Source of the DNA: Nitrospinota bacterium
GTDB taxonomy: Bacteria; Tectomicrobia; Entotheonellia; J063
Assembly (NCBI GenBank): GCA_003696125.1
Contig: RFHZ01000687.1
Location: forward strand, 1 to 14,340
Direction of reading: 5' to 3'
Length of the DNA stretch: 14,340 bases
Both the position numbers and the translations under genes were made by a program. Shown piece after piece: positions 5,898 to 14,340 of the stretch. The notes beneath the pieces were generated by a model. The model searched no databases. It saw only the letters and a program-made list of their open reading frames with translations, and was not told the DNA's origin. How positions within the stretch are numbered: position 1 is the stretch's first letter; the number at the start of each line of letters is the position of its first letter.

Positions 5898-6446
5898 TTA
5901 GTCACCTTCTTCCGCAACCTTTTCCTTATCGTTCTCTTTCCTATGGTCGATTCGGATAAGCCATCGCATGCCCAGGAATAAGAGGGCAGCGCTCAGAGAA
6001 GGGGTCCACAGGATGAATCCTCGCCCTAAGAGGGTAAAGCCAACGAACGTAGCGACGATACCGACCAGAAATCCGTTGTTCTCATGGAAAAACAGTCTAT
6101 CCGTTTGCTGCCACAGCGGTAACATCACTACGAAAAACCGTCCGGCCCACATACCGGTGATGCTCACCCCTAACGCAGCCAGGGGGAGTCCCAGAGGAGA
6201 GAAAGGATCGTGAACGACCAGCTCATAGACTCCATAGTAACTTATGACCCCAGAAACGATGAGAGTATCGACGGTAATCTTCTCAAACCATAAACCTGCC
6301 AGGACCCCCACCATCCAGGCTATAACAACAGTCATATAGGTAATATATGTTGAAGAAATGTTTGTTTGTAATATAAAGAAGTAACTAAACTGTACCACAG
6401 AAAAATAGAGACCGTTGAGAAAAGAGAAAATGACAAAGCTAATCAT
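5898..6446 (-). CDS. Small polytopic membrane protein, last gene of the pilin operon
   Basis: A 182-residue protein with about six hydrophobic segments and a charged C-terminal tail (HRKENDKEK). The ATG at 6446 overlaps the stop of the preceding gene by 8 bases (ATGATTAG), a sign of translational coupling; a TTG two codons earlier is an alternative. No named family is recognised. Its first two helices align without gaps to the first two of the upstream SpeE-like membrane protein. They share a Gln-Phe pair (residues 19-20 here also FSVVQF context), a GxxxG at the same distance and a following aromatic. It may therefore be a paralogue of that protein's membrane half, lacking the soluble domain. 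Base composition is AT-richer than the metabolic genes. Function is unknown; inner-membrane location is inferred. Confidence 0.8.
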   Translation of the reverse strand: MISFVIFSFLNGLYFSVVQFSYFFILQTNISSTYITYMTVVIAWMVGVLAGLWFEKITVDTLIVSGVISYYGVYELVVHDPFSPLGLPLAALGVSITGMWAGRFFVVMLPLWQQTDRLFFHENNGFLVGIVATFVGFTLLGRGFILWTPSLSAALLFLGMRWLIRIDHRKENDKEKVAEEGD

Positions 6447-7914
6447 CTTCAAAATACCTATCCATAAACCTCTCTAATCCACGTCGTAAGACCAAATCCA
6501 TTCTGTCTACGGATAGCGGTACCGCCTGGGTGAGATAGGCGTCTAGCTGGGAAGGCGTAACGATCTTTATTCTCCTTTCGTAACTCTCCCCTTTTTCCAG
6601 GAGTTCTCCTTTTCCAAAAGGGAGGTGCATCGACGCATAGGCGAAACTCCGATCAGCCTTATCACTATGTATCACCATGACCTCCCGGAATACCTGCCGC
6701 AAGGCGGCCACCACTCGGGCCGGGGTTCGGTTGTTACGCTGCAAAGGGCCGCTCAACTGGACAGCGATGACGCCATCAGGGTTCAGCCGCTTCTGTGCGA
6801 TCCGATAGAACTCAACGGTATGCAGATACGCTTCCTGTATGGTCAATGGTGAGGGGATATCCATGATGATCAAGTCATAGGTATCCCGATTTCTCCGCAA
6901 AAAATGTTTTCCGTCATCTACGTAAAGTCTCCAGTGTTTGAGAGCCCTCAGCCCGGCCGGATTGGTAAAAAACTGTTTCCCGGCAAGCAGTACCCCTGGA
7001 TCCAGCTCTACGGAGATCACCTGGTGGGAAAACTGAGAGACGCTCTGGACCGAGGAGAGGGTACCGTTGCCGATCAACAGGCTCTTTTCAGGCCGGATGA
7101 GGCTGGCGGGAAGCGTTGCAATATAGTAGTTGAGGACCGCTAAGTCGGTCGAGTTTAAATTCTCTAACCCATCGAGATAGAGGTGGCGGCCTCCTTGAGC
7201 ATCTTCTATCACTTCAACCTTCTGATAAGGGGAGTTTATGGAAAAGAGGGCCCGGGCTCCTCTTAGGCCATGCTTGTACCTGTACAGCATCGCCGTGCTG
7301 TGGAGATCTATGGTGGGCAGGAATACCCCGGTGAGGAGGGCAGTGCCGACATAGATCACCGTTAAGCCCCTGTTGGTGAGGATAAGGTGTAAGAGTATTG
7401 CCAGTATCATCCAATAGCAGAGCAGCAGATACACCAGCCTCCTGTTCCAGAGGAGACTCACCAGAAAGAAGCCGACCATGAAACCCAGAATTTCCAGCGT
7501 ATAAAAAACCTTCAGGTTCCACAAGCGCTCGGTTTCTCCATCCCGTTGTGAGATAAAACGGGGGAGGAATGTGGCAAAAATGGCATTAAAAATCAAAGCA
7601 TAGGCCAGTAGCCATGCTCCATACGCATAGCCACTCATATCCAGGGTGCTGATATAAGCTGCCAGGTAGCGATAAGAGTAAGGGAAGGTTAAATGCAAAA
7701 ACAGCGAAAGGACAAGCAGGATTTTAAATACCCGTTCGGAGAAGAGGAGCGAAAAGACATAACCGATTGATAAGCCGAAAAAAAATGAGGTGGTCACCAG
7801 GATGATGACCACCTCTTCACCGTATAATACGGTGACCAGATCCCGGATCATGATAAACTGGGCAATGCTAAGGCTTGTGCCAATGAGAAACAGCACTACC
7901 CGGTGTCTGTGCAT
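6439..7914 (-). CDS. Membrane protein with degenerate spermidine-synthase-like domain
   Basis: A 491-residue protein. Residues 6-200 contain about seven hydrophobic segments; residues 225-470 form a Rossmann methyltransferase fold like spermidine synthase (SpeE). Recognisable parts are SPYQKVEV (228-235), LYLDGLEN (245-252), the acidic ribose site VELDPGV (302-308), DDGKHF (333-338) and YDLIIMD (346-352). Several catalytic or binding signatures are altered. The GGGDGG cofactor loop is GNGTLSS (282-288), the DE-YHE polyamine motif is absent, and DSSDPxG is DIPSPLT (352-358). Aminopropyl transfer is therefore doubtful; another nucleotide or SAM-related role, or none, is possible. AAGGAGG precedes the ATG at very short spacing. 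It follows the Lys-Asp protein by 49 bases and overlaps the small membrane gene. Confidence 0.85.
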   Translation of the reverse strand: MHRHRVVLFLIGTSLSIAQFIMIRDLVTVLYGEEVVIILVTTSFFFGLSIGYVFSLLFSERVFKILLVLSLFLHLTFPYSYRYLAAYISTLDMSGYAYGAWLLAYALIFNAIFATFLPRFISQRDGETERLWNLKVFYTLEILGFMVGFFLVSLLWNRRLVYLLLCYWMILAILLHLILTNRGLTVIYVGTALLTGVFLPTIDLHSTAMLYRYKHGLRGARALFSINSPYQKVEVIEDAQGGRHLYLDGLENLNSTDLAVLNYYIATLPASLIRPEKSLLIGNGTLSSVQSVSQFSHQVISVELDPGVLLAGKQFFTNPAGLRALKHWRLYVDDGKHFLRRNRDTYDLIIMDIPSPLTIQEAYLHTVEFYRIAQKRLNPDGVIAVQLSGPLQRNNRTPARVVAALRQVFREVMVIHSDKADRSFAYASMHLPFGKGELLEKGESYERRIKIVTPSQLDAYLTQAVPLSVDRMDLVLRRGLERFMDRYFEDD

Positions 7915-7963: not shown

Positions 7964-9229
7964 CTATTCGCTCTTCCAGGCAAACCGCTTTAAGGAAGAG
8001 GGAGAAGGAGTTACCCGCAGCGAGTCGACCGTATCCGGATCGTAGACGACCGCAATCCCTCCCCCGCAGCTCGACGATTCTAAGTAGATACCGCTGCCTG
8101 CCACCACGGCCCCGTTAACGTACTGTACCTCACCGTTCTTCTGTTTCTGCTCTATCTCCACAAAGTCGGGGGTGTAGACCACCCCCGAGATATTCGCCGC
8201 ATGATGAATATCCACAATCCCTCCTGAATACATTAAGGCCGGCATGTCTTCATGCTGCCCGAAAGTTTTATACCCGGCCAGAGGAACCCCTCTGGGATCC
8301 TTCGAGGCATGAGCGGTGGCGATTTCGTCCCAGGCGCTCTGGTATCCGCTCGGCCACGGGAAGGGGGCTTCAGTGCTCGTCCGTGTTGCAGCCGCTATAC
8401 TCCAGGCATCGAAGTCGGTAGGACTCAAAATCGCTGTCCCGGTCGTGGGACTGACAACTGGATTGATATTGATCGGAATTTCGATCTTTACCTTGTAAGA
8501 GGGAGACCCGTTGATCAAATCGATGACTAAAGTCCCTTTCACATTAATACTGCCCGTCTGCAGGGTCTTCTCCCCAGCGCTGGCATCGAGGGTCACATAG
8601 ACAATCCCATAGAGTTGTTCCTCGTTGACGACTCTACTCTCGAATTCACTCCAGGAAAGGGTATTATTGGTCGCTATGGCTGCGGCTTTGTACCGATTAA
8701 AATCAAACAGTTGATTTGACGGATTATCGAAGTACGTGAGCCGACCAAGCCCTCCTGGCTGTGCGAGGTCGGTATAGATCTGTTTGGTATTTTGAAATTC
8801 GGCCTGTGTTTCTGCCAGGACCCCATCGTCCCCAGGCGTATTGATCACTGTGGTGAGATTCCCCCCGGTTCTTAACGATACGTGAAGCGTTTTAGAAGCA
8901 CTCATTCCATGATCGAGCTGGTTGTTCGACCATACCGTTCCTCCCCCCTGAATCAACGAGCGAGAGGCATCCAGGGTGATCTTCCCATTGCGGTTACACC
9001 CTCCGACATCCTCTCCTCCTCCCCCTTCATCCCCATCGGTGTCCTTATCCTTATCCTTGTCCTTATCCTTGTCCTTATCCTTGTCCTTATCTTCGTCTTC
9101 GGCAAAGACCTTCTTGGTCAAGCCTTGCGGGGAAAAGGCCTGGAAAAAAGGCACCCCATGGCCAAAAGCCAAGAGAAAAACGGCGCATACAAGGGATATG
9201 AGTACAGGATGCTGCCATCTCTTCTTCAT
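7964..9229 (-). CDS. Secreted pilus-associated protein with Lys-Asp tract (unknown family)
   Basis: A 421-residue protein with an N-terminal signal peptide or anchor (residues 8-31, LISLVCAVFLLAF core). An alternating Asp-Lys tract (47-63) and an Asp/Gly-rich linker follow. The remaining 340 residues are rich in beta-type sequence, Asn, Thr and Gly. The C-terminus (about 365-410) has GVVYTPDFVEIE, NGAVVAGSGIYL and GGIAVVYDP, resembling the tail found in some PilX-like pilus proteins, where short strands stack. Two Cys (78 and one near 394) might pair. It follows the PilX-like gene by 30 bases with a purine-rich GGAGAGGGAGAG before the ATG, and occupies the operon slot usually held by the adhesin PilY1. 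No PilY1 beta-propeller motif is seen. An outer-surface or pilus-tip role is inferred only from context. Confidence 0.75.
   Translation of the reverse strand: MKKRWQHPVLISLVCAVFLLAFGHGVPFFQAFSPQGLTKKVFAEDEDKDKDKDKDKDKDKDKDTDGDEGGGGEDVGGCNRNGKITLDASRSLIQGGGTVWSNNQLDHGMSASKTLHVSLRTGGNLTTVINTPGDDGVLAETQAEFQNTKQIYTDLAQPGGLGRLTYFDNPSNQLFDFNRYKAAAIATNNTLSWSEFESRVVNEEQLYGIVYVTLDASAGEKTLQTGSINVKGTLVIDLINGSPSYKVKIEIPININPVVSPTTGTAILSPTDFDAWSIAAATRTSTEAPFPWPSGYQSAWDEIATAHASKDPRGVPLAGYKTFGQHEDMPALMYSGGIVDIHHAANISGVVYTPDFVEIEQKQKNGEVQYVNGAVVAGSGIYLESSSCGGGIAVVYDPDTVDSLRVTPSPSSLKRFAWKSE
9041..9091 (-). repeat. In-frame 6-base tandem repeat encoding Asp-Lys
   Basis: Seventeen codons alternate Asp and Lys. 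Lys is always AAG, while Asp alternates mostly GAC and GAT, so the DNA repeats with a 6-base and partly a 12-base period. Gain or loss of units would keep frame and only change the length of the charged linker. Confidence 0.9.
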
Positions 9230-9259: not shown

Positions 9260-9781
9260 TCATGGAGCATTGTTCAACGCCCCATTGATGATGTTTGCTC
9301 CACTGGTGGTCAGGGCAAGGGTTATGTCCTTCCGATTCTTCGTGCCAGCCGGATTGCCCCGAGAATGGATATACACCAGGGTCGGGGCCTCAGACGCATC
9401 GACCCAGATGAAGGCGCGGGTGTCACCGCTGTTGACCACAATCCGGTTGTCGTCAGACCCGATGTCCTCTTTGTTCGCGAAAACCTGCAGGAAATCGATG
9501 GTGCCATCGCCGTCAAGATCGTTATCGGTATTTGCCGTATCGTTTCCATCGACTGCACCATCGCCGGTGGTATCTCCCATTTTGAAGGCGTTAAATACCT
9601 TCTCTGCTCCTGCTTCAGCGGCATAGAGCGCTTGGATACTCCCTTCATAATTCTTGGTTATCAGGCGGTCTATATCGGCGGTAAAGAAGGCCGCTGCTCC
9701 CAGCACAGCGAGGCCCGTCATGATGATCAACCCTGTGATGAGCGCTGCGCCGGCCTCATCACGTTGCCACACCTCTCTCAT
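9260..9781 (-). CDS. PilX-like minor pilin with EF-hand/dockerin-like loops
   Basis: A 173-residue protein with the PilX N-terminal layout. A short basic/acidic leader ends in EAG (9-11), then comes a hydrophobic helix AALITGLIIMTGLAVLGAAA (12-31) and the YAAEAGAEK helix (53-61) common in PilX and GspK-type proteins. There is no Glu at position 5 of the mature form, as is usual for this subgroup. Residues 70-81 (DTTGDGAVDGND) and 88-99 (DLDGDGTIDFLQ) match calcium-binding DxDxDG loops of dockerin/EF-hand type. AAAGGAGGAG lies before the ATG. The gene follows the PilW-like gene by 17 bases. By family it would be a minor component of a type IV pilus or related pseudopilus, processed by the prepilin peptidase or inserted as is. 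Confidence 0.8.
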   Translation of the reverse strand: MREVWQRDEAGAALITGLIIMTGLAVLGAAAFFTADIDRLITKNYEGSIQALYAAEAGAEKVFNAFKMGDTTGDGAVDGNDTANTDNDLDGDGTIDFLQVFANKEDIGSDDNRIVVNSGDTRAFIWVDASEAPTLVYIHSRGNPAGTKNRKDITLALTTSGANIINGALNNAP

Positions 9782-9798: not shown

Positions 9799-10482
9799 CT
9801 ATCCCTGATTTCTTAAGAGGACCTTTGCCGTCAGGGTGATTCGCCTGTAGTGGTCTCCCAGGGTCGGGTGGGTATAGCCGTAGTCGGGTTGCCGGGTCTT
9901 TGCCGTGATGGTGATGGTCACCATCCTGATATCATGGAGCGTCCTCCCGGGAAGGCTGTTATCGGGCAACCCAACGTCTGCACTCTCTGTCCCATCAGCG
10001 TATGTATAGGTGATGGTCATACTCTCAATATTCTCGACAACACTTTGCCAGGCGCTGATCTGCCCATCAGCAGGAGAGATAAGCGCCTGTTGGAGACTAT
10101 GGGAGTTCACCCGAAAACCGAAACGCTCGTCTGCACTGTTGTCAATGCTCCCGTTTTCATTCCAGTCCGCGGTAAAATAGAGCTCACGGTCAGTAGTCAG
10201 AGCCAGCTCGGCATCATTACTCGCCAGAAAGTCGTCCCTTGTAATACCAAAGGCACGGGTCTCTAGAGGATCATAGCCAGCCACCTCCAGGGCTCTGACG
10301 AGGAGGTCAAGTCCCATTCTGGCATTCTGCTGCATCTCGACGAGCTGGTCTTGCACGGCATAGGTCTTTACCTGAGAAATACAGAAATTGTAAATGCCGG
10401 CAAGGAGCAGGAGACTGATACCCATGGCGATCAGGAGCTCTATCAGGGTAAAACCGGTGTCCTGGAGGTGATAACGTTCCAT
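9799..10482 (-). CDS. pilW: PilW-like type IV minor pilin
   Basis: A 227-residue prepilin starting at ATG 10482, two bases after the PilV-like stop; a longer open frame upstream overlaps that gene and is disfavoured. The leader MERYHLQDTG ends in the prepilin-peptidase site G10-F11, and mature Glu5 is present (FTLIE), followed by the hydrophobic helix LLIAMGISLLLLAGIYNF. The body holds a QQNARMGLDLLVRALEVAGYDP segment (about residues 54-75), strongly typical of PilW proteins, and an Asp/Asn-rich DWNENGSIDNSADE stretch that may bind calcium. No strong ribosome site precedes it, which fits translational coupling to the upstream gene. It acts at the initiation or tip complex of the pilus by family knowledge. 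Confidence 0.88.
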   Translation of the reverse strand: MERYHLQDTGFTLIELLIAMGISLLLLAGIYNFCISQVKTYAVQDQLVEMQQNARMGLDLLVRALEVAGYDPLETRAFGITRDDFLASNDAELALTTDRELYFTADWNENGSIDNSADERFGFRVNSHSLQQALISPADGQISAWQSVVENIESMTITYTYADGTESADVGLPDNSLPGRTLHDIRMVTITITAKTRQPDYGYTHPTLGDHYRRITLTAKVLLRNQG

Positions 10483-10484
10483 AG

Positions 10485-10982
10485 TTATTGATTGATCAAG
10501 GTGCGATAGGTCACGGCATGCGTCGTCGTGTCCCGCCATGTTACCGTAACGGTCAGCAGGGTCAACTGACCGGCTCCACCGGTGATCGTTACGGTCCTGG
10601 TGAATATTCCCTCCCCTGCTACCCCGTTTTCATCCAGGTTACTCTCTATGGAGTTATCGGCATCCGTGAGCGGAGTAGTCAGGGCTATCCTCTTTATCTC
10701 TTCCATTTTATTGTGCGCCAGGGTAATGGCAATGGTCCGTTTTTTACTATAATCGCCATACTTGATGACCGCTATAACCATAGAGGCCAACCCCAGGAGG
10801 GCCACGGTAAGAATGAGCAATGCAATCGTGACCTCGATCAGGGTAAACCCGCTCTCCCTTCTCCTGCCCTGGCCCTCGCAGAGATGCTTCTGTCCCCCGA
10901 GGAGTCTTACTCTCCAGATTACAGACGCATTCTGCCGCGTAGTGGTCCAGCTTTTTGACAGGATATCGACTCTCTGGTGCAT
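10485..10982 (-). CDS. pilV: PilV-like type IV minor pilin with long leader
   Basis: A 165-residue prepilin. The canonical site SGFTLIE (44-50) places cleavage after Gly45, with mature Glu5 present and helix VTIALLILTVALLGLASM. Downstream there is HNKMEEIKR, a PilV/GspI-type segment, then a short beta-rich domain. The ATG at 10982 lies only four bases after the stop of the GspH/FimT-like gene, with GAGG close by; no other ATG, GTG or TTG falls between it and the cleavage site. The resulting 45-residue cytoplasmic leader is long for this family, where leaders of 6-25 residues are more common. The call as minor pilin is firm; the V subtype is by operon position and similarity. Confidence 0.87.
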   Translation of the reverse strand: MHQRVDILSKSWTTTRQNASVIWRVRLLGGQKHLCEGQGRRRESGFTLIEVTIALLILTVALLGLASMVIAVIKYGDYSKKRTIAITLAHNKMEEIKRIALTTPLTDADNSIESNLDENGVAGEGIFTRTVTITGGAGQLTLLTVTVTWRDTTTHAVTYRTLINQ

Positions 10983-10986
10983 TGCC

Positions 10987-11436
10987 TCACTCTATCCTGA
11001 TATAGCCGGTGGGAGAGACGATAATCGATATGGTGTGCGTCCCCTGCGCATCTTGTAAAGTAATGGCTGTCCTCCCTGTTGCCGTTCCGTTGGGGTGAAA
11101 AACCGGTGCGGCTGTCACCTGTCTGAAATGCACTCTTAACGGGAGGGTGTTCGCCGTCCCTACCCTCTCCCATGTACCGGGTGACACCTCTCGCTCTACC
11201 TGATAGCTCTTGTTTTGGGTATCAAAACTGATCCGGAAAGGAGTATTTTGGGCAATCGCTTTGAGCCGAGCGAGTTGGAGTTCAGAGGCGATATCTCTGG
11301 CCGCTGAGTTCAGATTGAAGTGAGAAAGCCACCGACTCAGGCTGGGTGTGGTAAACACCGCAAGGAGTCCAACGATTATCAGGACGACTAAGAGTTCATT
11401 GGTTGTGAACGCGCTCTCCCGGCAAGAGGGGTTCAT
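10987..11436 (-). CDS. fimT: GspH/FimT-family minor pilin (first gene of the operon)
   Basis: A 149-residue prepilin from the ATG at 11436, preceded by AAGGAGGG at good spacing; a start seven codons earlier lacks this. The processing region is SAFTTNELLVVLIIVGLLA: cleavage would be after Ala9 rather than the usual Gly, with Phe at mature position 1 and Glu14 as mature Glu5. The region from about residue 36 has the FNLNSAARDIASELQLAR pattern and RLKAIAQNTPFRISFD, which are strong GspH/FimT signatures. The C-terminus ends GYIRIE, typical of GspH domains that finish with a G-x-I/V strand. It opens a tightly packed minus-strand operon of seven genes. Its role is priming or stabilising the pilus tip with the PilV, PilW and PilX partners. 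Confidence 0.87.
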   Translation of the reverse strand: MNPSCRESAFTTNELLVVLIIVGLLAVFTTPSLSRWLSHFNLNSAARDIASELQLARLKAIAQNTPFRISFDTQNKSYQVEREVSPGTWERVGTANTLPLRVHFRQVTAAPVFHPNGTATGRTAITLQDAQGTHTISIIVSPTGYIRIE

Positions 11437-11492
11437 CGTTTCCCTCCTTCCCCACACGGCTGCGTTCAGCCCACCTCCTGGCCTGAATCGCT

Positions 11493-12611: not shown

Positions 12612-14340
12612 TTACTCTGGTGCGGCCTGGGTCACGGTGGCAAAGGCCTGGCTTCCGGTGATGCGATCGGTGGCGGTGATGGTTATGGTCCTCTCCTCAG
12701 TGAGAGGATTAGCCCCTACAGTGAGGGTCACCGTTTGACCGACAAACGCCACGGTGTTTAAACTCCCGTCGTCCGAGACAACGGTGTAGCTCGTATCCGA
12801 CCCGCCGGTAACGGTAAAGTTGAAGTTTCCTCCGTCTGCCGGCACCTCACCACTGCTCGGCGTAATGGTTACCGGTTTGATGAGGGTGCGGCTGATCAGG
12901 GCCGTTGCGTCTCCATTTTCGGGTGAGGTAACCGTGATACTCAGGGTAGCGGCGATATTCTTCGTTTCTTCTGTGTCGTTGGTCCAGGTGAGACCGAAGA
13001 CGGTAAAGCCCCCCTGTACATCGGGGATGGTAACGGTGGTATCGCCAAACAGGCTCCCTGCGCTGACTTCTGCCCTGATGAGGGTTCCGGCCGTGAGCGG
13101 GTTCCCATTCTGATCGGTAACGGTATAGATAAAGTTCTGGGAGCCCTGATTGAATATGCTCCCAAACCCTCCAAACCCCTGGAAGGAATCGGCAAGGGGT
13201 ATGATCGTGATCTGGGTGTGACCGGAGAAGAGCACCGTCCCGGTGGTGAAGATGTTGTTGGTCAGGGCATTGGGGGCGGTGCCGTTGATCACCTCAAAGG
13301 TGGGGGTCGTTGGATCCAGCCTGACCACATTCCTTCCCGCCGTCCCCACGTAAACGGTACCAGGATCGGCTGCAGAAATACCGAGGGAGTAAACCCGGTT
13401 GTCAGGCAGATCATCCGGGGGGAGGGAGAGTTCACCAGCAGGGAGGGTCGGAATCCGGGTCCAGGTCACCCCGCTGTCCGTACTGATGAAGACGCCTCCC
13501 TCTGGAGCATTCCCCTCGATGCTGCGCGTCCCGTCTCCCAGGGTCGCCGCATAGAGGATGGTGGAATCGGTGGGATCGATCACGATATCGGTAACAAAGG
13601 TGTTGAGGACATCGCTGGCGTTGACATTGGTGGTAGCCGCGGTCCAGGTGGCGGCCACCCCGGTACAGTCGGTGGCTCCTCCCGAGGTGCCATCGGTGAG
13701 GAGGAAGATGCCACCCAGGGCCGTTCCCGCATACACCCGCGTGCCATCGGTGGCCAGGGTGTTGACCACACTCGCCGCCAGCCCGTCGTTCACCGGACAC
13801 CACAGGGGAACCGTATCGGTGGCGTTGAAGGTACGGAAAACCCCTCCCCCAAAGGTGCCGGCGTATACCGTGTCCTTATCCAGGGCCACCAGGGAGAGGA
13901 TGTTGAAGTTGCTCAACCCGTTGTTGATCTCTGCCCAACTGAATCCTCCATTCACCGAGCGGAAGACCCCCGCTCCCTGGGTGCCGGCATAGAGGATACG
14001 GTTGTCGGCCGGTTCGCTGACCGAGGGATCTGGATCAAGGGCTAAGGAGGTCACCCGGAAACTGGGGATAAAAGCGCCCAGATCATAGTCGACGGTGACC
14101 ACATCCCCGTCCTGGAGCCCGGCTCCTGCCAGGATCTGGATGTTCTGGCTGTCCACATAGCGGTACCGGCTGGTGGGTATGCCATTGATCCGCACCATCG
14201 TCTTGGTCCGGTTCTGATCGCTGGGAAAGTCGAGCGATTCCAGGGAGAGGGCGTTGACCACGATGTTGTCCACACCGGCCGCAGGGGGAACGTGGAAGGA
14301 AATGGTGGTATCGCTGCTGACGGTAAAGTCGGTCCCGATA
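12612..14340 (-). CDS. Large surface protein with Asp-box beta-propeller and Ig-like domains, partial (5' end outside window)
   Basis: The frame is open to the right edge; codons before the GTG at 14273 read TISFHVPPAAG, the end of an IPT/TIG-like domain, so that GTG is not the start. About 575 residues are visible. Counting from the GTG, residues 74-320 contain at least five repeats of a YAGT-x-GGVFRS type unit. Two of these end in Asp-boxes, SVNGGFSW (106-113) and STDSGVTW (264-271), as in BNR/sialidase-like propellers. Residues 350-465 resemble an invasin-type Ig-like domain (YTVTDQNGNPLTAGTLIRA). The end (466-550) resembles a BACON-type domain (ITPSSGEVPADGGNFNFTV). The protein is probably exported and on the cell surface, perhaps an adhesin or polymer-binding protein. 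No enzyme activity is claimed. The missing N-terminus could carry a signal peptide and more repeats. Confidence 0.82.
   Translation of the reverse strand, partial: IGTDFTVSSDTTISFHVPPAAGVDNIVVNALSLESLDFPSDQNRTKTMVRINGIPTSRYRYVDSQNIQILAGAGLQDGDVVTVDYDLGAFIPSFRVTSLALDPDPSVSEPADNRILYAGTQGAGVFRSVNGGFSWAEINNGLSNFNILSLVALDKDTVYAGTFGGGVFRTFNATDTVPLWCPVNDGLAASVVNTLATDGTRVYAGTALGGIFLLTDGTSGGATDCTGVAATWTAATTNVNASDVLNTFVTDIVIDPTDSTILYAATLGDGTRSIEGNAPEGGVFISTDSGVTWTRIPTLPAGELSLPPDDLPDNRVYSLGISAADPGTVYVGTAGRNVVRLDPTTPTFEVINGTAPNALTNNIFTTGTVLFSGHTQITIIPLADSFQGFGGFGSIFNQGSQNFIYTVTDQNGNPLTAGTLIRAEVSAGSLFGDTTVTIPDVQGGFTVFGLTWTNDTEETKNIAATLSITVTSPENGDATALISRTLIKPVTITPSSGEVPADGGNFNFTVTGGSDTSYTVVSDDGSLNTVAFVGQTVTLTVGANPLTEERTITITATDRITGSQAFATVTQAAPE

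Follow-up and report, generated by a model that had tools for sequence, protein, structure and literature searches.

A split membrane SpeE-like gene pair linked to exported Lys-Asp tract proteins in Nitrospinota and other bacteria: a candidate SAM-dependent transferase

We found that a pair of adjoining membrane protein genes, the larger of which encodes a spermidine synthase (SpeE)-like domain, is strongly linked to exported proteins carrying long tracts of alternating lysine and aspartate (KD tracts). Our favored reading, which we judge to have an even chance of being correct, is that the pair forms a membrane-bound SAM-dependent transferase split between two chains, and that this enzyme, probably a methyltransferase, acts upon the KD tracts of exported proteins. 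The pair lies within a 14,340-bp stretch of DNA (the window), which makes up all of contig C64 in a metagenome-assembled genome (MAG) that is fragmented into 990 contigs and has 94.8% completeness and 8.0% contamination. On the minus strand, the gene order is FimT/GspH-, PilV-, PilW-, and PilX-like minor pilins, a secreted protein, a 491-aa large membrane protein, and a 182-aa small membrane partner (Table 1), with fimT-pilV-pilW-pilX being consecutive according to the ORF list together with Pfam and other profile searches. Both the gene order and the profile matches agree with the initial annotation, which had placed the pair behind four minor pilins and a secreted protein on the same strand. 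It had also described the two membrane genes as coupled by an 8-base overlap, and indeed both ORFs are on the minus strand and the overlap ATGATTAG is present. The mechanical ORF of the small partner begins at a TTG at position 6452, its 182 residues being counted from the ATG, and a convergent MFS gene on the plus strand stops 15 bases away from the pair. The gene order is likewise compatible with the proposal that all of these genes are transcribed as one operon, which they may well be; the alternative of a separate promoter between 7914 and 7964 received no hit in a promoter scan, albeit one that yields no more sites than its own shuffled sequences. About 100 bases into the large gene (7787-7815, minus strand), a 13-pair hairpin followed by ATTTTTTTTC resembles an intrinsic terminator or attenuator, and terminator-like sites overall were no more frequent than in shuffled sequences. 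Upstream of the pilin genes are a Ros/MucR-type regulator (PF05443; 12044-12583, plus strand) and a large propeller/BACON-like protein (12612-14273, minus strand) that is truncated by the contig end.

Table 1. Features of the pair and its surroundings. Positions refer to the window unless another locus is named.
Feature	Position	Strand	Evidence or remark
Small membrane partner, 182 aa from ATG	5898..6446	-	Behind the large gene in relatives with enough sequence
8-base overlap ATGATTAG	6439..6446	-	Couples the large and small genes
Large protein, 491 aa	6439..7914	-	PF01564, 57.7 bits (cut-off 22.9), residues 265-414; NF037959 (fused MFS/SpdSyn), 44.1 bits (cut-off 40); hydropathy over 28 relatives
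SpeE-like catalytic domain, residues ~221-415	6670..7254	-	Profile alignment to PDB spermidine synthases; motif tally over 28 relatives
Secreted protein, 421 aa, (KD)n tract just past the signal region; proposed client	7964..9229	-	
Eight AAG-GAC/T units in a run	9041..9088	-	Sole (KD)6 locus of the window genome; both Asp codons used
PilX-like minor pilin	9260..9781	-	PF14341, 29.8 bits, above cut-off
PilW-like minor pilin, likely start ATG 10482	about 9799..10482	-	PF07963 above cut-off; weak PilW and gspJ matches
PilV-like minor pilin	10485..10982	-	TIGR02523, 45.8 bits, below its cut-off of 52.2; PF07963
FimT/GspH-like minor pilin	10987..11457	-	PF12019, 34.4 bits
Multiheme-lipoprotein neighbors of distant-type pairs	L042 12498-13481; L044 12031-12954; L150 3473-4198; L151 601-1314		

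The linkage was evident from a genome-wide search with the DNA pattern (AARGAY)6, which corresponds to (KD)6. Among 77 Nitrospinota genomes, a tract was detected in 17 of the 18 that carry the pair versus 2 of the 59 that lack it (Fisher p = 6e-14), and the association held when labels were shuffled within genera (p = 4e-5). For the 31 genomes of at least 90% completeness and no more than 5% contamination, the corresponding values were 9/10 and 0/21 (p = 5e-7). A broad sample of 386 genomes included seven with a tract, two of these being the two that possess a pair of the close type defined below. The exceptions to the rule likely have ordinary causes: the contig of G422 breaks off shortly after the large gene, G445 (81% complete) is also missing the KamA gene that neighbors the locus, which may simply be unassembled in this genome, and the tract hit in G458 falls in a protein that shows no evident export signal. 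It should be noted that exported KD tracts do occur without a close-type pair in a few genomes, such as G095 and G352; in the latter, a pilin-like protein carries a KD tail at its C-terminus (L112, contig C18). The KD tract of a nidogen-like protein at the Nitrospinaceae locus L034 had been taken for chance, an interpretation that was dropped once the genome-wide search revealed the association.

The initial annotation had mentioned the secreted protein of the window without commenting on its KD tract. The protein reads ...TKKVFA-EDEDKDKDKDKDKDKDKDKDKDTD..., such that the tract starts three residues past a plausible signal-peptidase site. At the Nitrospinota loci, one or two secreted proteins bearing a KD-type tract come next after the pair, and many of these loci continue with three minor pilins, one PilX-like protein, and PilM. 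Further carriers, often encoded elsewhere in the genome, include pilins of the PilV-like and PilX-like kinds, a KD-tailed membrane protein, small secreted proteins consisting almost wholly of KD, and a cytochrome of G469 that has 17 CxxCH motifs and likewise a KD tail. Most tracts mix both Lys and both Asp codons, which argues that they are maintained at the protein level rather than by slippage. In about fifteen proteins, the tract begins 0-5 residues after an AxA-like site, and thus their predicted mature N-terminus would be the KD tract itself. In a bolder reading, to which we give a level of confidence just short of even, (KD)n would serve as a client tag with a logic similar to that of a sorting tag served by a dedicated enzyme: the tag would sit close to the mature N-terminus, or else at the C-terminus, of otherwise unrelated exports (minor pilins, cytochromes, adhesin-like proteins, and pure KD peptides), and the split SAM-dependent transferase would covalently modify its lysines.

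A second phylum, that of genome G067, provided an independent view of the same arrangement. Split pairs were found in 9 of its 24 genomes, with the close type confined to G469 and G470, and exactly these two genomes have a KD tract, whereas none was found in the genomes with distant-type pairs. In G470, a single strand encodes PilX-like, PilY1 (identified by PF05567), and DUF1573 proteins, the large and small proteins, a KD protein, and PilV-like and PilW-like pilins. The G469 locus, also on a single strand, consists of a KD-rich protein, PilV-, PilW-, PilX-, and PilY1-like proteins (the last judged by appearance), a 113-aa protein, and the large and small proteins. In both phyla, the pair is found beside minor pilins and a KD protein with the gene orders shuffled. 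A lack of conservation of this neighborhood would have spoken against the module outlined in the initial annotation; it is in fact conserved in two other phyla.

Given the pilin genes at so many of these loci, the pair could instead be a pilus-assembly or pilin-modifying factor with the KD proteins as mere neighbors in a pilus gene block. Minor pilins are indeed near the pair in G469, G470, and the window, as well as in most of the Nitrospinota loci whose flanks are long enough to judge; a first impression from L034 and L041 that relatives lack pilins was wrong, as G296 has both pilins and KD genes downstream of the pair at a distance of about 9 kb. Nevertheless, we consider this explanation improbable. 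The G009 genome (98% complete) retains KamA and pilins at the locus, yet has neither the pair nor KD genes, and no remnants of either were found there. In G394, about 210 kb separate the pair from the KD genes and pilins, which are together. Moreover, several KD proteins are unrelated to pilins. From the G009 and G394 loci, we can conclude that the pair tracks the KD proteins more closely than it does the pilins, although KD proteins and pilins are themselves linked. The suggestion that the pair may modify, sense, or export something linked to the pilus survives in part: modification fits our results, but the tight correlate is the exported (KD)n proteins, some of which are encoded far from pilin genes. 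The KamA (lysine 2,3-aminomutase) gene and an ATP-grasp-like gene upstream of the pair in Nitrospinota were also considered as a beta-lysine or polyamine pathway, which was rejected as not specific to the pair: KamA occurs in 67 of 77 Nitrospinota genomes irrespective of the pair, and neither gene was found in the genome of the window. A conserved set at about 15 Nitrospinota loci (L034 5057-7942 and equivalents) comprises a divergent Lon-N-like protein, an unknown protein that resembles an ATP-grasp ligase without a Pfam match, and KamA, and this set is present without the pair as well.

Hydropathy over 28 relatives of the large protein indicates approximately seven hydrophobic segments within residues 1-200. 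The SpeE-like domain that follows was recovered in a profile search against solved structures, which matched residues about 221-386 to spermidine synthases with an E-value of about 6e-23. When aligned to these structures, the domain retains residues of the SAM fold, including E303, as well as the acid of the DDG motif (D334). Motif I reads IGNGT, with T285 in place of the acid of GGGDGG that binds decarboxylated SAM (dcSAM), and the DSxDP motif reads DIPSP, in which D352 is kept and S355 replaces the second Asp. Thus, the altered cofactor and polyamine motifs noted in the initial annotation are borne out by the profile alignment. A motif tally extended this pattern to 28 of 28 relatives, all having T or S at the acid of GxG(D/E)G and all keeping the SAM-site acid, the DDGK-type acid, and the catalytic Asp. 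An AlphaFold model built from a two-sequence alignment had a mean pLDDT of 41, too low to judge a pocket or the number of membrane segments from it. SpeD is the usual source of dcSAM. A search for it, which covered PF02675 and whose controls gave a signal in 8 of 14 cases, found it in none of the 13 genomes with a close-type pair, the window genome included. The window genome (G000) also encodes two more SpeE-like proteins without a membrane part (L030 on contig C420 and L001 on C965), both with GLGGGS where GGGDGG is expected, in the same SpeD-negative background.

Since the GxG(D/E)G acid is lost in all of the relatives and SpeD was not found in any of the 13 genomes, a canonical aminopropyltransferase is unlikely and a SAM-dependent methyltransferase would be the simplest reading. 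By the same reasoning, a true membrane-bound spermidine synthase, which would account for the PF01564 and speE model matches, seems to us very improbable indeed: the speE equivalog scores all fell far below their cut-offs (97 vs 260 bits and 77 vs 250 bits), and the second Asp is lost together with the GGGDGG acid. A transferase acting upon the KD lysines with another donor group is also quite unlikely in our estimation. Such an enzyme might add aminopropyl groups, as an extracellular polyamine-like decoration of the kind found in silaffins, or 3-amino-3-carboxypropyl groups, and it would be in keeping with the SpeE fold, the retained D352, and the promotion of silica deposition by (KD)n peptides and silaffins alike. 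The aminopropyl version conflicts with the missing dcSAM-binding acid and SpeD, and nothing specific supports the aminocarboxypropyl version.

The small partner contains a conserved F-x-ENNGF motif, and family profile searches matched it to no known family. Of 18 close-type loci that could be compared, 14, among them the window, have its ATG 8 bases before the end of the large gene, and this recurrence indicates that the overlap is not due to chance. Both genes are present at L034 with 54% and 49% identity, respectively. In a maximum-likelihood tree, a close type, comprising the window, Nitrospinota, G469, and G470, was separated from a distant type with support of 100/100. The close-type lineage spans three bacterial phyla, and the large protein of the window forms a long branch within it, taking the membership of the contig in the MAG as assigned; more distant split pairs are present in another phylum. 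The large protein is also homologous to single chains of ~760 aa (L005-L009 and others; 440 columns, hhalign E 1e-38), while the match of the small partner to the C-terminal part of these fused chains is weak (E 0.014). One further locus (L063/L064, contig C22 of G442) has a large gene that is seemingly frameshifted and split over two frames at the contig end. In another phylum, distant-type pairs adjoin a conserved multiheme c-type lipoprotein with 8-12 CxxCH motifs and the motif SWHDxYL (Table 1). No KD tracts were found in these genomes (L042, L044, L150, and L151), and the distant-type pair may therefore have a different client.

In the mechanism that we propose, the two genes would encode a split, membrane-embedded SAM-dependent transferase, with the small protein completing the membrane part. 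Its clients would be exported proteins, surface or pilus-associated, that have a long run of alternating Lys and Asp at one end or close to it. The SpeE-like domain would transfer a methyl group from SAM rather than an aminopropyl group from dcSAM, the acceptor being either the lysine side chains of the tract or an N-terminal amine, and modification would occur as the client passes the inner membrane, during or after export. The direct enzyme-substrate relation, the methyl group, the lysine acceptor, the side of the membrane, and the formation of a complex are all presumptive elements of this model. With an odd number of membrane segments (seven) and a cytoplasmic N-terminus, the SpeE-like domain would be predicted to lie outside of the membrane. 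To our knowledge, SAM does not occur outside the cell membrane, and thus this placement counts against a SAM-dependent transferase.

The co-occurring block could also be inherited jointly without any direct enzymatic relation. A non-modifying role, in which the pair belongs with the KD proteins and the pilus as a membrane export, anchoring, or sensing module, is unlikely in our view but by no means negligible, and we extend the same judgment to its corollaries, that the SpeE-like domain does no more than bind a small molecule, SAM or another, and that the KD tract is a charged surface or mineral-binding element. The co-occurrence of pair and KD tracts fits this explanation equally, as do the altered catalytic surroundings, the match to the NF037959 "fused MFS/spermidine synthase" family, and the ability of synthetic (KD)10 peptides to promote and nucleate silica deposition (PMC5459154). 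On the other hand, the retention of the three catalytic and SAM-site acids in every relative suggests that catalysis has been preserved.

Proteins that combine membrane segments with a SpeE-like domain often receive the annotation spermidine synthase or fused MFS protein, with no known substrate. The KD link would offer one lineage of them a concrete and testable client, and under our favored transferase reading, lysines of bacterial pili, cytochromes, and surface proteins would carry a modification not described so far. The link would also help to explain the conspicuous (KD)n tracts of Nitrospinota, a group that is central to marine nitrite oxidation, and possibly a route to modified poly-zwitterionic peptides. 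Literature searches on KDKDKDKD and on pilin with spermidine synthase returned no description of such a system. Membrane SpeE-like proteins and a fungal methyltransferase are known, whereas the two-gene form with a KD clientele and a pilus linkage was not found in the literature searched, and it has a genuine chance of being the first instance of a new surface-modification system.

Several known systems share parts of this arrangement. The same pilin genes as in the type IV minor-pilin operon fimT-pilV-pilW-pilX(-pilY1) are directly upstream or downstream of the pair, but PilY1 is absent from the window contig, being present in G470 and, by appearance, in G469; we know of no standard type IV minor-pilin set that includes a SpeE-like pair and a KD protein. 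With SpeE (PDB 4uoe, 1inl, 2o05), the large protein shares the Rossmann-like domain and conserved SAM-site acids; it differs in the lost dcSAM and second-Asp determinants, the added membrane part, and the lack of a detectable SpeD in the 13 genomes. The ~760-aa chains of the NF037959 type have an alignable N-terminal membrane part and SpeE-like domain in one long chain, whereas here the second membrane part is a separate gene. Another bacterial fusion of a 7TM transporter-like part with a SpeE-like domain is the 7TM-spermidine-synthase-like protein of the PspA/DUF350/DUF4178 operons (Ravi et al. 2024, PMC11237479), although none of its partners (PspA-CesT/Tir, DUF350, and DUF4178) was among the window proteins scanned with Pfam. 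The fungal N-terminal histidine methyltransferase NHMT (AN4663) combines a predicted 7TM part with a SpeE-like domain and methylates the mature N-terminus of secreted LPMOs, which offers a precedent for the mechanism proposed here, and Batth et al. 2023 separate it from spermidine synthases by the acid of GxG(D/E)G (PMC10349129). The question of SAM supply applies to NHMT as well. As in NHMT, the large protein has a non-acidic residue at this position, and the KD proteins are exported as are the NHMT clients, often with the tract at the predicted mature N-terminus. By hydropathy of the 28 relatives, seven hydrophobic regions precede the SpeE-like domain, and these may correspond to a 7TM part. 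The 7TM part of NHMT is reported as unique to fungi (PMC10349129), and the likeness described here would be one of architecture and motif. NHMT is a single gene of filamentous fungi with His1 clients, whereas the system described here consists of two bacterial genes associated with Lys-Asp tracts.
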